Source: an uncultured Helicobacter sp. (GTDB lineage: Bacteria; Campylobacterota; Campylobacteria; Campylobacterales; Helicobacteraceae). From it: a stretch of 64,000 nucleotides of DNA. The notes beneath the pieces are model-generated. The model was not told the DNA's origin. It worked only from the letters and a program-made list of their open reading frames with translations, and did not search any database. Below, piece by piece: positions 28,315 to 35,545 of the stretch. Location: assembly GCF_910577135.1 (NCBI RefSeq), contig NZ_CAJTLL010000006.1, positions 58,095-122,094 of the forward strand, in the 5' to 3' direction. Numbering within the stretch: the stretch's first letter is position 1; each line of letters opens with the position of its first letter. A program made the translations under genes and the position numbers.

Positions 28315-28479
28315 CACTTAGGACAAGTGTCCAAGTATTTGAATCTGTTTGTCATTAAATTTTATAGAGATTTTATATGTGCTATAAAACAATGTTATTT
28401 GATGCTAGATTTAGCTGAGACAGAGTCATAAATAAAAATAAGTTTTGCAAACAAACATCTATCTTGCAATACCTTTTAG

Positions 28480-28519
28480 AATAGTAAAAAGGAGAGTGTA
28501 ATCTTTCCTTTTTACTATT
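28480..28519. repeat. Strong inverted repeat, 14-17 bp stem
   Basis: Arms AATAGTAAAAAGGA (28480-28493) and TCCTTTTTACTATT (28506-28519) are perfectly complementary. Pairing extends inward through one G-T and two normal pairs, leaving a 6-nt loop. It is not followed by a T-run on the plus strand. It may end a transcript, form a small RNA, or be a mobile-element remnant. Confidence 0.7.
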
Positions 28520-29317
28520 GGGATAAAAAAATTAAGTAGAGTAAGTTGCACATAAAGTTGTTTCCACTTGTATAAATAAATCATAAATATATTTTCTCCA
28601 TATTATTGTAAAATTCTTTAGATAACTTAGGAGGGTGAGTCTAAGCAGGACAAGGAGACCTGATAAGCAATAGTTAAACTTGTATTCTAATCGCTGATAG
28701 ATGTATTTGCATATTTTAAAGAAAACTATGAAACTTGAATTTTATGAATATATATATATTGCAGGTAGGCGTTAAACAAAAATATTATTTTCTTTTGATA
28801 TCCATCCTAAAGGCACTTTTATCTTTAAAGTATCTTTAGATTCTTTTTTATAATAAAGATAGAGTTTTGATGTAATCTTAAGTAGTGATTAAAAAATAAT
28901 CCTTTCTATTGCCCATTATCTACCCACTCCCTTCATTCCAGTATAATCCTACAAAGGTAAAAAAGATATTATTTTTCTATTTGAGGATACCTTTCACCTT
29001 CAAGCCCAAAATATAAAATCTCTTTTTGCCTTAAGATATGAGGATTACATCTTTTTTGGTAAATTGAAGGAGAAATCTTACTTTGTATCCCTATGGGATT
29101 TACTTAAGAGCTAATGTTATTACAGACTTTTGCAAGTATTAAATAAATACTTTGTGTGAATGCTTTATTGAATCTGCTTCTCTGGCTTTTCTTTGATAGG
29201 TTATTTTTTATTTTCACTCCATATCTCCAATATTTACAAGAGGTGAAGGGAAATCATAGCTAATATCTCTTTTATGTATCTTTATTGTGAAAGCCAAGGT
29301 TGTGTGCTTTATATTCT

Positions 29318-29361
29318 TTTACTATTGTGCCGTGTGCCGTACATACACCAAGTACTAATCC
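29318..29361 (-). repeat. Dispersed intergenic repeat, copy B
   Basis: Together with its right flank to 29372 it matches the copy at 44137-44194; in the 24 positions 29349-29372 I count 19 identities. It is more diverged from the copy at 24343. Confidence 0.45.
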
Positions 29362-29438
29362 ATACTCGCAAGCAATTCTTAAGGTTATCTGTGAATTGTA
29401 TAGCTTACTAAACTTGCTCATTTGCAAAGAATTAAGTG

Positions 29439-29459
29439 TATAATATAACAAACGTTATA
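29439..29459 (+). promoter_or_regulatory. selA promoter with overlapping palindrome
   Basis: TGTATAAT (-10 at 29439-29444) is followed at once by TATAAC-AAAC-GTTATA (29444-29459), an inverted repeat covering the expected transcription start. That is the position of a repressor operator. The leader to the selA GTG is about 50 nt and the ribosome-binding site is AAGGAG. Regulation is inferred. Confidence 0.5.
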
Positions 29460-29499
29460 GGCTTATTTGAGTTTGTTTTTTTATATTAAGGAGTGATAT

Positions 29500-30885
29500 G
29501 TGAAAAACCTGCTTCAATCCATTCCTAAAGTCGATTCGCTGCTCCAGCATAATGAGCTAAAATCGTTTGATAAATCCCTCCTTTTGCCCCTTATTGCATC
29601 GCATCTTAACGCCCTACGCACAAATCTAAAAGCAGGACATATCTCTAGAGCAACTTTTGAAGAATCTCTGCTTGGTCTTATCCCCATGCTTAAAAAAAAG
29701 GCAGAGGCACTTTCTCGCCCTACCTTAAGGCAAGTGGTAAATGCCACAGGCGTTGTAATACATACAAATCTTGGGCGGAGTGTGCTTTCACAAGAAATCC
29801 TTGATGAAATCATGCCATTTTTACGCAGTTATCACACACTTGAATACGATTTGGACAAAGGCAAGAGAGATGAGCGCTATAGGCACTGCACACAAATGTT
29901 ATGTGAAATATGCGGCTGTGAGGACGCGCTTTTGGTGAATAACAACGCCTCTGCGGTGTTTTTAGTGCTAAATACCTTTGGAGCGCAAAAAGAGACTATT
30001 ATCTCACGTGGGGAGCTTGTGGAGATTGGCGGGAGTTTTAGAATCCCTGAAATTATGGCAAGTGCGGGGAGTATCCTATGTGAAGTAGGCACGACAAACA
30101 AAACGCGTCTAAGGGATTATGAAAATGCCATTAACGAGCAGAGTGCTATTATTATGAAAACACATCAAAGCAATTTTAAGCAAATAGGCTTCGTGCAATC
30201 CTGCGAGTTTAAAGAGCTTACCACTCTAGCGCGGAAGCACCATCTTATTGATTATTTTGACTTAGGCAGCGGGCATATAGGAGTGCTAAATCTCCCAGAT
30301 GAGCCAAGTGTGCAGGAGATTTGCAAATATAAGCCCTCACTTCTTAGCTTTAGCGGAGATAAACTCTTAGGGGCGGGGCAAGTAGGCATTATACTTGGCT
30401 CATCGCCTCTTATTGCAACACTTAAGAAAAATCCCTTACTTCGTGCATTGAGAGTAGATAAATTCAGCATTCTCGCCCTCAATGCGACCCTCAAAGCCTA
30501 TAAGCAAAAGGCTTATTATAAGATTCCAACCCTCTCTATGCTTCAAACAGATAGCAAGGTGTTAGAATCTAGGGCACAAACGTTAAAAAATGCTCTTAAT
30601 GCCACTCCATTTGCCTCAAAATTTGCCCTCCTTGAGGTTATTCCCTTGCAATCACTCGCAGGAGGAGGGAGTATCCCACATTTATCATTTGATTCCTTTG
30701 GTGTAGCACTTTGTATGAAAGATATGGAGGTTAAGGCTTTAGAATCTGCCTTAAGGCGATGCGGGATAATCGTCTGTGTGCAAAAAGATAGAATCCTCCT
30801 TGATATGCGGACATTGCTTAATGGCGATGAGGAGCAAATTTTAAGCGCACTTGAAAGCATTCTAGGTGAGACAAATGCAGGATAA
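29500..30885 (+). CDS. selA: L-seryl-tRNA(Sec) selenium transferase
   Basis: PLP enzyme turning Ser-tRNA(Sec) into Sec-tRNA(Sec) with selenophosphate. 461 aa from a GTG start that follows AAGGAG; the preceding ATG is out of frame. Blocks are RQVVNATGVVIHTNLGRS, NNNASAVFL, ISRGELVEIGGSFRIPEIM, and FSGDKLLGAGQVGII with the PLP lysine. The C-terminal domain is complete. It overlaps selB by 11 bp. Neither selC (tRNA-Sec) nor selD was found in the window. Confidence 0.96.
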   Translation: MKNLLQSIPKVDSLLQHNELKSFDKSLLLPLIASHLNALRTNLKAGHISRATFEESLLGLIPMLKKKAEALSRPTLRQVVNATGVVIHTNLGRSVLSQEILDEIMPFLRSYHTLEYDLDKGKRDERYRHCTQMLCEICGCEDALLVNNNASAVFLVLNTFGAQKETIISRGELVEIGGSFRIPEIMASAGSILCEVGTTNKTRLRDYENAINEQSAIIMKTHQSNFKQIGFVQSCEFKELTTLARKHHLIDYFDLGSGHIGVLNLPDEPSVQEICKYKPSLLSFSGDKLLGAGQVGIILGSSPLIATLKKNPLLRALRVDKFSILALNATLKAYKQKAYYKIPTLSMLQTDSKVLESRAQTLKNALNATPFASKFALLEVIPLQSLAGGGSIPHLSFDSFGVALCMKDMEVKALESALRRCGIIVCVQKDRILLDMRTLLNGDEEQILSALESILGETNAG

Positions 30886-32779
30886 TGATATTATCGTTGG
30901 GCTAGGTGGGCATATTGACCACGGCAAAACAACGCTTATCAAGGCTCTTAATGGCTTTGATGGAGATAATCTCAAAGAGGAAAAGCAAAGGGGTATTACA
31001 TTAGATTTAAGCTTTTCCTCCCTCCCCCTACCTGCGCGTAATGTCGCCTTTATCGATGTCCCCGGACACGAAAAATTAGTAAAAAATATGATTGCGGGGA
31101 CCTTTGGTATTGATGTATTGCTGCTTGTGATAGCCGCAAATGAAGGGATTATGCCTCAAACATTAGAGCATATTAAAATTGCCGATATGCTGGGGATTCG
31201 CACCTGCATTTGCGTGATAACTAAAATTGACAAGCTCACTTCACCCTCCACGCAACTTCCGCTTTTAGAATCTCACATTGCAAAGCTTTTTATACAAAGT
31301 GATATAAAGTTGCATTCCTGTATTGCCCTTAGTCTGCACCCTAAAGCAGACAAGATAGAAAACACACAGGCATTAGAGGCATTAAAAGAAGTCCTAGATA
31401 ATGTGCCTAAGCCACAGAGGGCAGATTTTGGTATGTTTGTGTATTACATTGATAGAAGCTTTACGATAAAAGGCGCAGGCTGCGTGGTAACCGGTAGTGT
31501 TTTAAGCGGGCAATGCGCCCCTAATGACAAGCTTTATGCTTATCATATCCATAAGGAAGTATCCGTGCGCGGGATACAAATTCACGATAAAGATGCGCCT
31601 CTAGCCACGCCCTCGCATCGTGTCGCGCTCAATCTCACACAAGTAAAACACAATGAGCTTAAAAGAGGCTTTCTCGTTGCGCCTAAGGGATATTTGCGGG
31701 GATTTAATAGTGTTGATGTAGCGATTTTTGGTGATGTGAAGCATAATGCTACCTATCAATGCTACATAGGCAGCACGAAGCTTAATGCAAAGGTGCAGAT
31801 TCTAGAATCTTCTCCCATAAGCGCACATAGCTTTGGCTCAAAGCCCCTTATCCTCGCTACACTCAAATGCGATGAGCCCATCTTTGGCATATTCTCGCAA
31901 CGTTTTGTCCTAAGAAATGATGAGGGCGCATTAGGTGGAGGCGTGATTTTAAATCCCATCATTGACCCTATTAAAAAATCTACCAAGATTACATTGCTTA
32001 AAGCCCTCGCACAAAGGGACTTCCACCAAGCATTTACCTTGCTTACACGCATTCATAAAAAGGGCTTTGGACTTGTGAGTTCGACACAAAGATTTAATCT
32101 TAGCCACGTTCAAAGCTGTGAAATCGCCACCTCAATAGATTCTATCTTTGTTGATGAAAAGTCCCTCACACTCTACCCCCTCTCACAAATAGAATCGATA
32201 AAAACCGTTATTATTGATATTTTTACACGTAATAAATATGCTCTTCTCTCCGCGCAAAGCTTGAGTTTAAAGCATAAATGGGCGTCTTTAGCCCTCGCAC
32301 AAAGGGCATTAGATGAGCTGCTTGATGAAGGGCAGATTATCCATAAAAATGGGCTGTATCTCTCCTGCTCGAATGAAACTAAGGATATTCGCATATACGT
32401 TGAAGATGTGCTATTTGATACACTTATTAAGCAGCACTTTACGCCACTTGCGCCCTATAATATTTATGATGCACTTGATATTGATAGAAAAATGGGCGAT
32501 AATGCACTAAAAAGCCTCTCCCTAAGCAAAAAGATCGTGCGTCTTAGCCATAATTTTTTTATCGCTACCACTGCATTGATGCAAATGAATGCCCTTATGC
32601 GTGAGATTATCACAAAGCAGGGCTATGTAGATGTCAATAATTTGCGCGAGCGCACTCATTTAAGCCGTAAATATCTCATCGGCTATTTAGAGTATCTCGA
32701 TAAATTTGATGATATAGAATGTATCGATAATAAGCGATTCTATAAATACATAAAGCCGCATAATGAGGTAGAGCAATGA
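30875..32779 (+). CDS. selB: Selenocysteine-specific elongation factor SelB
   Basis: GTPase that brings Sec-tRNA to a UGA with a SECIS hairpin. The ATG at 30875 (MQDNDIIVGLGGHID) is preferred to an upstream GTG. G1 is GHIDHGKTTL, then the switch region RGITLDLSFS, G3 DVPGHE and the G4 region TKID. After domains 2-3 come C-terminal winged helices (about 400-634), expected to bind the mRNA hairpin. Length 634 aa. Overlaps selA by 11 bp and the next gene by 4 bp. Implies at least one selenoprotein, most likely formate dehydrogenase, elsewhere in the genome. Confidence 0.95.
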   Translation: MQDNDIIVGLGGHIDHGKTTLIKALNGFDGDNLKEEKQRGITLDLSFSSLPLPARNVAFIDVPGHEKLVKNMIAGTFGIDVLLLVIAANEGIMPQTLEHIKIADMLGIRTCICVITKIDKLTSPSTQLPLLESHIAKLFIQSDIKLHSCIALSLHPKADKIENTQALEALKEVLDNVPKPQRADFGMFVYYIDRSFTIKGAGCVVTGSVLSGQCAPNDKLYAYHIHKEVSVRGIQIHDKDAPLATPSHRVALNLTQVKHNELKRGFLVAPKGYLRGFNSVDVAIFGDVKHNATYQCYIGSTKLNAKVQILESSPISAHSFGSKPLILATLKCDEPIFGIFSQRFVLRNDEGALGGGVILNPIIDPIKKSTKITLLKALAQRDFHQAFTLLTRIHKKGFGLVSSTQRFNLSHVQSCEIATSIDSIFVDEKSLTLYPLSQIESIKTVIIDIFTRNKYALLSAQSLSLKHKWASLALAQRALDELLDEGQIIHKNGLYLSCSNETKDIRIYVEDVLFDTLIKQHFTPLAPYNIYDALDIDRKMGDNALKSLSLSKKIVRLSHNFFIATTALMQMNALMREIITKQGYVDVNNLRERTHLSRKYLIGYLEYLDKFDDIECIDNKRFYKYIKPHNEVEQ

Positions 32780-33879
32780 ATATACATCTTGATTTTTTAG
32801 CTAATTTCCCGCTAAATAAAAGCGCAAATGCCCTGCTTTTTGAGGATAGCTATCCTAATCCTAATATATTTGACAATGCCTTTGTGCGTGATTTAAAGGC
32901 AGATAGCGCACACTTAAGCGCGATGTTTAATAAAACTCACGCCCATAGTTTTGATTATAGCTGCGGGGAGTTTCTCTGCCTCTTTAGCACACTTTTTTCT
33001 CATCATTATCATATTGTCTTAGCTCCTAGCTTTTCACAGCAGAGCTTTTATGCCGCACATACATTTCAGACAATGCACAAAGATGGCTTATCTTTTATGC
33101 CACTCTCGCAGCAGGGCATTATAGAATCTCTGCCTGTTTTAAACATACGCCCAAATGAACCAATAGTTTTTTTCCTGCCTATTATCAACCAAGATGTGCT
33201 ATCCATAAATCCCATAGAATCTATGATAGAGCAGATTCTATGTGCTTATCCTCACGCGCTTATATTTTGTGATATTTCACTTTTTTTAAGCACACTCACA
33301 CAAGCACATTTAGAATCTTTGCGCCTTCTCAAGCATAAAAAATTGCTTTTTATGTGTAATGCCGAGCATATTGGCTTAATGCGTAAATGCGGCTTTATCC
33401 TAAGTGAGCTAAGTGATGGGGAAATTCCCGCACTTAAAGCTTATTTTGACACACAGCTTTTGCGTCCCAATCTCTTTAAAGCCGCCATTACCGCCATAGA
33501 GGACATACTCGCCCTGCCTCCTAGCATAGATACTAAAGCGCAGTTTTTTACATCTTTGCAATCGCATTTAAAAGATGATATGGCACTTTTTGTGCCATAT
33601 CATCTTTTAAATAGCCCAAACGCTCTTGCTTTGCGATTTAAGGGTATAAAAGCACGACTTTTGATAGAGAGTTTGCAAATAGCAGGGATTTATGCTATTA
33701 ACGGGCAGGATTGTCTCTTTGGCAATGCAAAGCCCTCTTTTGTCCTACATTCTATGGGCTATGATGAACCACAATGTCGCGAGTTACTTAGCGTGAGCTA
33801 TAAGCATTTAGATGATATAGAATCTATTACCTCACATATCGCCTCTGCGTATTTGCAACTACGACAATTCCATTTATGA
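32776..33879 (+). CDS. Degenerate NifS/cysteine-desulfurase-like protein in the sel operon, 367 aa
   Basis: Distant relative of class V aminotransferases (NifS, IscS, SufS). The N-terminus HLDFLANFPLNKSA parallels the YLDNAATTP block. The C-terminus (LALRFKGIKARLLIESLQIA, NGQDCLFGNAKPSFVLHSMG) parallels the region around the catalytic Cys, with Cys313 at the right place. The PLP-lysine block, SAHK in active enzymes, aligns with NAEH (His198), so the lysine is lost. It could be a pseudoenzyme that carries or delivers selenium to SelD or SelA, or a binding partner. Its start overlaps selB by 4 nt and moeA follows after 12 bp. The gene also contains a 21-bp perfect inverted repeat. Confidence 0.75.
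   Translation: MNIHLDFLANFPLNKSANALLFEDSYPNPNIFDNAFVRDLKADSAHLSAMFNKTHAHSFDYSCGEFLCLFSTLFSHHYHIVLAPSFSQQSFYAAHTFQTMHKDGLSFMPLSQQGIIESLPVLNIRPNEPIVFFLPIINQDVLSINPIESMIEQILCAYPHALIFCDISLFLSTLTQAHLESLRLLKHKKLLFMCNAEHIGLMRKCGFILSELSDGEIPALKAYFDTQLLRPNLFKAAITAIEDILALPPSIDTKAQFFTSLQSHLKDDMALFVPYHLLNSPNALALRFKGIKARLLIESLQIAGIYAINGQDCLFGNAKPSFVLHSMGYDEPQCRELLSVSYKHLDDIESITSHIASAYLQLRQFHL
33566..33612. repeat. 21-bp perfect inverted repeat inside a coding region
   Basis: Arms 33566-33586 and 33592-33612 are exact reverse complements around a loop of five T (33587-33591). The mRNA would fold into a very stable hairpin, reading through AAAAGATGATATGGCAC and its complement. The encoded protein is uninterrupted. 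Far longer than expected by chance within a gene. Confidence 0.85.
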
Positions 33880-33891
33880 AGGAGATACGCT

Positions 33892-35118
33892 ATGGTAAGT
33901 TTTTTAGAAGCATTACAAATCGCCACATCTTTAAGCCCTACCACGCGCACACATACATTGCTACTTTTTAAATCTTACAATCATATTATTACTCAAGATA
34001 TCAAAGCCACTAAATCGCTCCCGCCATTTGATAATTCTGCAATGGACGGCTATGCGATTATGTTAGATGATTATGGTTCTACTTGTGTGTGTGATGGGAG
34101 CATTTTCGCCGGGGATAATGCTACTCATATCACGCTCACAAAGGGGCATACTTATAAGGTAATGACGGGCGCGATGATTCCCCAACATACACAAGCCATC
34201 GTGCAGTTTGAATGGACTAAAGATAATGGCACAGCGGTGCAAATCCCTGCTAGTGATTGTTTGCAGAGTATCAAAGCAGGGCAGAATATTCGTTTCAAGG
34301 GTGAAGAAATCGCCCCAGATTCTATACTTTTACGCAAAGGGCAGCGGCTTAATCATTTAGATGTAAGCATTCTTGCCTCACAGGGTATAAGCGCAATAGA
34401 GAGCTTTACACCCTTAAAAATAGGGATTTTCTCTAGTGGTGATGAGGTGATTGAGCCTCACCAAAAGGCAGCACCTCATCAAATCTATAATACCAATGCC
34501 ACAAGCCTTTATACACTCCTTACGCAAAGAGGCTATCAATGCAGTTATGAGGGTATTTTAGCAGATGATATGAATGCCCTTTGTGGGAAAATAGAGCAAT
34601 TTACACAATATGATGTGGCGATTACAAGCGGTGGGGCGAGTGTAGGCGATGCGGATTTAATCAAAACTGCCCTTCAGGCACAGGGTGCGAGATTTCTTTT
34701 TGATGGCATAAATGTAAAGCCCGGGCGACATCTTAGCTGTGCTATGCTAAAAGATACTTTGATTATCCTGCTCCCGGGCAATCCTCTAGCCCTGCTTTTA
34801 CATACGCATACTTTTGTGCTTTCTGTTTTAGAATCTTTGCAAGGTGGTAGGGCTATCTACCCTAAAAGCCTTACTCTAAAGCTCTCGCACGATGTAAAAC
34901 TAAAGCCTAATACTACAAATATGCTTCTAGGCAATATACAAAATGATACATTTTTGCTTTATAATAATGGCAAAATCGGCTCAAGTTCGTTAGTAAATAT
35001 GTGGAAAAACAATGCGATCGCGCTTTTTGAAAGCACTCATACATTCTCTCAAGGCACAGCGATTAAGGTTATCCCATATAATGCCGATTTTTGTGATATA
35101 ATGGACTATATGAATTAA
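33892..35118 (+). CDS. moeA: Molybdopterin molybdenumtransferase
   Basis: Inserts molybdate into adenylated molybdopterin to form Moco. 408 aa. Blocks are PPFDNSAMDGYAI, KVMTGAMIP, FSSGDEV, NTNATSLYTLL, ITSGGASVGDAD and LLPGNPLALLLH. The four-domain length is normal. Its place in the selA-selB operon suggests joint supply of selenium and molybdenum cofactor to a formate dehydrogenase. 12 bp after the NifS-like gene, 10 bp before the Usp gene. Confidence 0.95.
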   Translation: MVSFLEALQIATSLSPTTRTHTLLLFKSYNHIITQDIKATKSLPPFDNSAMDGYAIMLDDYGSTCVCDGSIFAGDNATHITLTKGHTYKVMTGAMIPQHTQAIVQFEWTKDNGTAVQIPASDCLQSIKAGQNIRFKGEEIAPDSILLRKGQRLNHLDVSILASQGISAIESFTPLKIGIFSSGDEVIEPHQKAAPHQIYNTNATSLYTLLTQRGYQCSYEGILADDMNALCGKIEQFTQYDVAITSGGASVGDADLIKTALQAQGARFLFDGINVKPGRHLSCAMLKDTLIILLPGNPLALLLHTHTFVLSVLESLQGGRAIYPKSLTLKLSHDVKLKPNTTNMLLGNIQNDTFLLYNNGKIGSSSLVNMWKNNAIALFESTHTFSQGTAIKVIPYNADFCDIMDYMN

Positions 35119-35128
35119 AGGAGTAAGT

Positions 35129-35545
35129 ATGACAAAGCTTTTGTTTGGAGTGAGCGATACGCAAGAATGCCGCAGAGCCATTAGTACGATTATCCGTTTT
35201 TTTGGGCATAGAGATGAGATAGAGCTTACACTTTTGCACGTTACTCCCGAAATTGTCGTATATGCTGAAAGTGGGATTGTGGATTATGGCACGATAGAAA
35301 ATATAGAAAATGAAAAATCAAAAAATATTTTAAATGAGTTTGAACTCGCTTTTAATAAAGAGGGCATTACTTGCGAAAAGATTCTAAAAACGGGTAATCC
35401 TGTTGATGTCGTGCTTGAAATCATCAATGAATATGATTTACTTGTAATTGGCGCGAGTGAATCTTCCCTTTTGCATAGAATCTTTAATTCTCATCAAAAT
35501 AGCTTTATCAATTCCTCCCCTATCCCCGTTTTGGTGGCAAAATAA
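35129..35545 (+). CDS. Universal stress protein family, 138 aa
   Basis: Single UspA domain with a clear alpha/beta fold pattern: LLFGVSDTQECRRA at the start, LTLLHVTP in strand 2, LLVIGASESSLLHRI and a C-terminal SPIPVLVAK. The ATP-binding pattern G-x2-G-x9-G(S/T) is not obvious, so nucleotide binding is doubtful. It is co-directional with moeA (10 bp gap) and the next gene (23 bp). Role not predictable. Confidence 0.85.
   Translation: MTKLLFGVSDTQECRRAISTIIRFFGHRDEIELTLLHVTPEIVVYAESGIVDYGTIENIENEKSKNILNEFELAFNKEGITCEKILKTGNPVDVVLEIINEYDLLVIGASESSLLHRIFNSHQNSFINSSPIPVLVAK

Follow-up and report, generated by a model that had tools for sequence, protein, structure and literature searches.

A lysine-less relative of cysteine desulfurases in the selenocysteine operon of Helicobacter accompanies FdhD and may serve formate dehydrogenase maturation

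The selenocysteine operon of an uncultured Helicobacter sp. contains, between selB and moeA, a gene for a protein of the cysteine desulfurase fold, which we refer to as X. It lies in a 64,000-nucleotide stretch of contig NZ_CAJTLL010000006.1 (assembly GCF_910577135.1, positions 58,095 to 122,094), termed the window. X lacks the lysine that in desulfurases forms a Schiff base with pyridoxal 5'-phosphate (PLP), and its distribution among genomes is better explained by a link to formate dehydrogenase (FDH) and FdhD than by a link to selenium. A place of X in the FDH/FdhD pathway is likely, in our view, and we propose, with a probability of about 0.55, that its Cys313 takes up sulfur from NifS and delivers it to FdhD, no PLP chemistry being involved. 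Jointly with this relay, we propose that X derives from a class I cysteine desulfurase, that PLP chemistry was lost in Helicobacteraceae, and that X is a dedicated FDH maturation factor working with one FdhD lineage.

Results

X has the desulfurase fold and a conserved loop cysteine. The AlphaFold model of X and its fold matches, the best of which include Archaeoglobus fulgidus IscS, correspond to the fold type I desulfurase fold. We located the lysine position by way of families f9 and f16, which appear from their protein names to be of the Arcobacter and Sulfurimonas types, respectively. Hhalign paired His198 of the Helicobacter X profile with K166 of the f9/f16 profile (probability, 99.9%) and this K166 with the SAHK lysine of nine NifS proteins (96.2%); the direct profile alignment of Helicobacter X with NifS was not significant (3.2%). 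In both predicted models, the residue at this position sits in a short helix following a strand. These results bear out an earlier note on this DNA, made from the letters alone, which had described a desulfurase relative without the PLP lysine, and the lysine was still missing after proper alignment. The comparison with NifS/SufS that it had called for was divided: the predicted fold matched desulfurases, but X scored 18.6 bits against the NCBIfam desulfurase model (cut-off, 530.75) and had no Pfam match up to an E value of 1. The family TIGR01977 was not among its NCBIfam matches up to the same value.

We then examined an alignment of 68 rows, from which L066 and four rows of family f14 (L075, L076, L081, and L082) were omitted as near-copy, odd, or short sequences. 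Position 198 varied (S, 19; K, 18; N, 14; T, 4; H, 3; R, 3; I, 2; and Y, P, M, V, and A, one each), the 18 K rows being all 16 f9/f16 rows plus those of genomes G086 and G089. The Schiff-base lysine is therefore absent from 50 of 52 Helicobacteraceae rows. Among the omitted sequences, L066, a near-copy of L064, has the lysine. Cys313, the loop cysteine that the earlier note had seen as kept, was invariant together with Pro320 and Ser321. The loop of X, NGQDCLFG, carries neither the class I SSGSACTS nor the class II RxGHHCA motif of desulfurases given in the excerpted text of PMC8300815; it has the class I length, alignments being gap-free across it, and residues 312 to 317 have a predicted local distance difference test score under 50 in the AlphaFold model.

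The four f14 proteins have only 225 to 227 amino acids (the starts in L075, L081, and L082 were our choice), with no residue aligning within 15 columns of the lysine and with an intact NGEGC loop domain, cysteine included. The idea that every X outside Helicobacteraceae has the lysine was ruled out by these four forms without the lysine segment. Their deletion raised our estimate for the sulfur relay from 0.5 to 0.55 and, by a similarly small step, that for the two-loss account given below. X is under purifying selection (dN/dS, the ratio of nonsynonymous to synonymous rates, of 0.09 to 0.24 over six pairs), and conservation (22 homologues were retrieved in the first protein search) together with this ratio ruled out a chance open reading frame (ORF) or a pseudogene.

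A fold of the desulfurase type in which the cofactor position has degenerated would also suit a noncatalytic partner or regulator of NifS, either a pseudoenzyme subunit or a competitor, that steers NifS to FdhD and in which Cys313 is structural or regulatory. This would accommodate the FdhD link described below, as well as the detection of NifS, scoring above the TIGR03403 cut-off, in all but one (G129) of the 11 X genomes that we tested. However, a pure adaptor would need no loop cysteine, which is kept in 68/68 rows and in the short f14 forms, and we regard this explanation as rather unlikely.

X is distributed with FdhD. Among 121 Helicobacteraceae genomes, 59 contain X, 62 contain FdhD over cut-off, and 79 contain FdhA, selA was over cut-off in 80, and selB and selD were counted in 77 and 82, respectively, the selB count being 75 rows over cut-off plus G086 and G089. 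In the latter two, SelB matches in two pieces with ∼120 bases between them (G086 C1:552275-554224 and G089 C44:49962-51917), neither of which reaches the cut-off; this ruled out X without selB in these genomes, where the best single match is EF-Tu-like. We removed 9 genomes under 90% complete, and the counts that follow for this family rest on the 112 remaining, good-quality genomes. X and FdhD were both present in 56 and both absent in 52, with X alone in two (G096 and G101) and FdhD alone in two (G107 and G116), corresponding to a phi coefficient of 0.928. For X and selB, the numbers were 58 with both, 0 with X only, 17 with selB only, and 37 with neither (phi, 0.728), and phi was 0.67 for X and selA and 0.645 for X and FdhA. 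X therefore tracks FdhD more closely than selB (0.93 versus 0.73), and among the 75 selB genomes, the table of X and FdhD reads 56, 2, 2, and 15 in the same order (both, X only, FdhD only, neither).

Thirteen selB genomes of genus g2, which is probably gastric, keep FdhA and lack FdhD and X. As a separate observation, the good-quality g2 genomes G003, G006 to G016, and G032 to G035 have an FDH catalytic subunit and no FdhD match. We searched for X remnants near selB in G107 and G116, as well as in G077 and G099, with queries for the latter two from genus g10, not their nearest kin. None was convincing, the best hit (E value, 0.009 in G116) lying inside nifS, and a whole-genome search also gave no X in any of the four. 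In G116 (L088:4029-8578), no X separates selB from moeA, and selA is directly preceded by a NifS gene that has the SAHK lysine.

Of 398 genomes sampled from the order, 77 contained X, and 49 of these belong to families other than Helicobacteraceae. FdhD accompanied X in 47 of these 49, the two misses being at a contig end (G233) and on a contig of 3,099 bases (G214). No FdhD without X occurred among the f9, f14, and f16 genomes of the sample; FdhD without X occurs in families f2, f6, f7, f10, f11, f15, and f20.

X also pairs with one of two deep FdhD clades in a sample of 25 FdhD proteins. Their tree splits into two clades (support, 100/100; length, 1.13), one with 15 X genomes plus G107 and G116 and the other with 8 non-X genomes from other families. 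The clades differ by the motifs GRHNA[IL]DK and AQH[NS]TIDK, and [ST]GC is kept in each. The loss of a CXXC motif from FdhD as the cause for X was ruled out, as CXXC is absent from all 25 FdhD proteins, with X or not. Replacement of FdhTU by X is likewise unsupported: PF04143 (YedE-type) matches occur in X and non-X genomes, G001 included, this family being mixed and FdhT not distinguished within it.

X lies in sel and fdh gene neighborhoods. We tabulated 72 loci (51 from Helicobacteraceae and 21 rows from other families) against a small set of reference proteins that included no scaffold; some neighbors are hidden because flanks were short and limits strict. The gene before X was selB in 41, modE-like in 10, fdhD in 6, and without assignment in 15, and the gene after it was moeA in 44, in sel and fdh settings alike, and without assignment in 28. 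By inspection, the order selA-selB-X-moeA was found in 10 of the 12 named loci L001 to L012; in L008 the order after X was not clear. Outside Helicobacteraceae, fdhD was in the locus in 18 of the 20 loci read and selA or selB beside X in none, with no fdhD, selA, or selB seen in L081 and L082. In L075 and L076, the short f14 X sits between fdhD and moeA. The order in L064 is FdhA fragment, FDH3 beta, gamma-like, FdhD, small ORF, ModE-like, X, moeA, TupA-like, and TupC-like, in which FDH3 beta and FdhD score above their cut-offs and the other named models below. The arrangement selA-selB-fdhD-modE-like-X-moeA-usp of genome G121 joins the sel-type and fdh-type settings of X.

In the window itself, the neighbors of X are selB and moeA, and fdh genes were not linked to it there (Table 1). 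The selA and selB models, the ATGA overlap, and the start of moeA agree with the place in the sel operon that the earlier note had given to X. The ∼1.2 kb of the window 5' of selA (28315-29499) contain no ORF of at least 80 amino acids when read in the standard code, nor did any Rfam family match there at its gathering score. In L006 (Helicobacter sp. MIT 00-7814), L093 (G086), and L095 (G089), a gene that is rpoN-like by inspection, not selB, directly precedes X.

Table 1. Features of X and its operon in the window
Feature	Position	Strand	Basis
selA, selenocysteine synthase, first operon gene	29500..30885	+	TIGR00474, 532 bits (cut-off, 267.9)
selB, selenocysteine-specific elongation factor	30866..32779	+	TIGR00475, 293.3 bits (cut-off, 242.25)
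ATGA overlap of X start codon and selB stop codon	32776..32779	+	Read directly in sequence
X, lysine-less cysteine-desulfurase-fold protein, 367 amino acids	32776..33879	+	ORF; AlphaFold model; fold matches; homologues
Asp166 codon (we take Asp166 to be the equivalent of the Asp pairing with the PLP pyridine nitrogen)	33271..33273	+	D 48, N 13, E 6, S 1 of 68 alignment rows
His198 codon, Schiff-base lysine position	33367..33369	+	Profile alignments and 68-row alignment
Cys313 codon, loop cysteine	33712..33714	+	Invariant in 68/68 rows
moeA, molybdenum/tungsten insertase homologue, next after X	33892..35118	+	PF03453 and PF00994
Universal stress protein gene, next in cluster	35129..35545	+	PF00582; same order in G001 and G121

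The selB neighbor suggests a selenium-pathway factor, with the cysteine carrying selenium to SelD or SelA, as the earlier note had proposed. One part of it held, as all 58 good-quality X genomes carry selA and selB, and in 31 of 32 loci read an in-frame TGA precedes the HSPTV or HAPTV of FdhA, one G121 copy being open there instead. The converse part did not: X is missing in 17 of 75 selB genomes and in 21 of 79 selA genomes, G077 and G099 keep selA, selB, and selD with FdhA, FdhD, and X not found, and the 20 loci outside Helicobacteraceae have no selA/selB next to X. We therefore hold a selenium role to be unlikely. In L119 and G121 we found three genes for the FDH catalytic subunit; the frame spans 960 codons in two of them and, as in the TGA copies, 755 codons in the third. 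Most Helicobacteraceae selD matches over cut-off contain an in-frame TGA, which makes SelD a probable selenoprotein in its own right, in agreement with PMC4607533 on this group.

The moeA gene that follows X in both settings, together with the ModE-, TupA-, and TupC-like genes of L064, could instead place X with MoeA in the insertion of tungsten or molybdenum into the cofactor. The desulfurase fold and the kept loop cysteine suggest sulfur rather than metal, which makes this very doubtful.

X forms a group separate from NifS. In a NifS-rooted tree built without f14 sequences, X was one group (100/100) apart from nine NifS proteins and Helicobacteraceae X one clade (100/99), the lysine-bearing f9/f16 rows falling outside that clade. 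In the simplest account, judged from sequence, the lysine would have been lost once at the base of the Helicobacteraceae clade, the site drifting afterwards, and the K of G086 and G089 would represent a drift back. It is possible, at somewhat less than even odds, that X is an ex-desulfurase turned PLP-free sulfur shuttle for one FdhD lineage and that the change was made twice, by loss of the lysine in Helicobacteraceae and by deletion of the segment in f14, with f9/f16 keeping the lysine.

Discussion

The observations made here by computation are the fold, the lost lysine, the f14 deletion, the invariant cysteine with its loop, purifying selection, the order fdhD-(modE)-X-moeA, the co-distribution with FdhD, and the clade pairing. 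From these we infer a persulfide relay, its direction, a contact between X and FdhD, and the absence of PLP. In this relay, Cys313 in the mobile loop of X would receive sulfur, as a persulfide, from a working NifS; X would then dock on FdhD and pass the sulfur to the cysteine of its [ST]GC motif; and FdhD would in turn provide it as the sulfido ligand of the molybdenum- or tungsten-bis-molybdopterin guanine dinucleotide (bis-MGD) cofactor before insertion into FdhA.

Active desulfurases are known to feed cofactor-binding chaperones of molybdenum enzymes, as in the pairs IscS-FdhD of E. coli and NifS4-XdhC of Rhodobacter (PMC10609526, in part), and FdhD is described as binding bis-MGD and taking sulfur to it from IscS (excerpts of PMC6239281 and PMC10609526). 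IscS and NifS4 are active enzymes, which Helicobacter X is not expected to be. It shares with class I NifS/IscS the fold, the mobile cysteine loop, and the loop length but differs by the missing Schiff-base lysine, the missing SSGSACTS-type motif, and NCBIfam scores far under the cut-off. In Campylobacter jejuni, FdhD is required for FDH, and FdhT, FdhU, and a Tup transporter control the enzyme (PMC4178425). The EF_2568-type family TIGR01977 resembles X as a desulfurase-fold gene near selenium genes; unlike X, it is termed a probable selenocysteine lyase and lies near selD (PMC2276186, in part).

The closest precedent for X is the lysine-less IscS of Archaeoglobus. A. fulgidus IscS (PDB 4hvk, 4eb5, and 4eb7; 4r5f is the D199K mutant) and Methanosarcina acetivorans IscS1 have the class I fold with the catalytic lysine replaced, and the Archaeoglobus-type protein shares with X the kept cysteine. 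A. fulgidus IscS is reported to have no desulfurase activity and to contribute its cysteine as a ligand (PMC7585200). That X likewise supplies a cysteine ligand for a scaffold-bound Fe-S cluster is the least probable explanation: the A. fulgidus protein, although among the best fold matches, works with IscU and is 13 to 15% identical, and the assigned neighbors of X are selB, fdhD, modE-like, and moeA, with no search aimed at scaffold genes. The earlier note had known of no described function, which holds for the X family in the literature searched, where titles and abstract openings gave no description of an X-type protein, but not for lysine-less relatives at large, as the Archaeoglobus proposal is published. 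A term search of the main text of PMC4607533, which in 2015 examined selenium genes in this group of bacteria, gave no occurrence of desulfurase, NifS, or moeA.

Several points weigh against the proposed relay to FdhD. The main facts that it fails to explain are G096 and G101, which have an open X frame away from selB with FdhD and FdhA not found; conversely, G107 and G116 have both FdhD and FdhA but no X. The clade of FdhD from genomes without X means that FdhD can work without it, and active FDH reportedly does not depend on the cysteines of E. coli FdhD (PMC6239281). The Asp position is mostly Asn in the lysine-bearing rows, so that these forms may or may not bind PLP. The phi values are descriptive, the genomes not being independent; genus g2 makes up 13 of the 17 selB genomes without X and, as one genus, counts as one event; and the genome-wide search for selA/selB was limited to Helicobacteraceae, other families being read at their X loci.

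Lysine-less desulfurase relatives are already known, and it is the context that is new here. To our knowledge, the sulfur route to FdhD outside E. coli is not settled. If the relay to FdhD is correct, FDH maturation would gain a new component, a dedicated desulfurase relative without the lysine that accompanies FdhD in four families, of relevance to the engineering of CO2-reducing formate dehydrogenases, and public records that now name such proteins cysteine desulfurase would be corrected. The position of X in the sel operon would then let one transcript serve both the selenium of FdhA, as selenocysteine, and the sulfur at its metal center.
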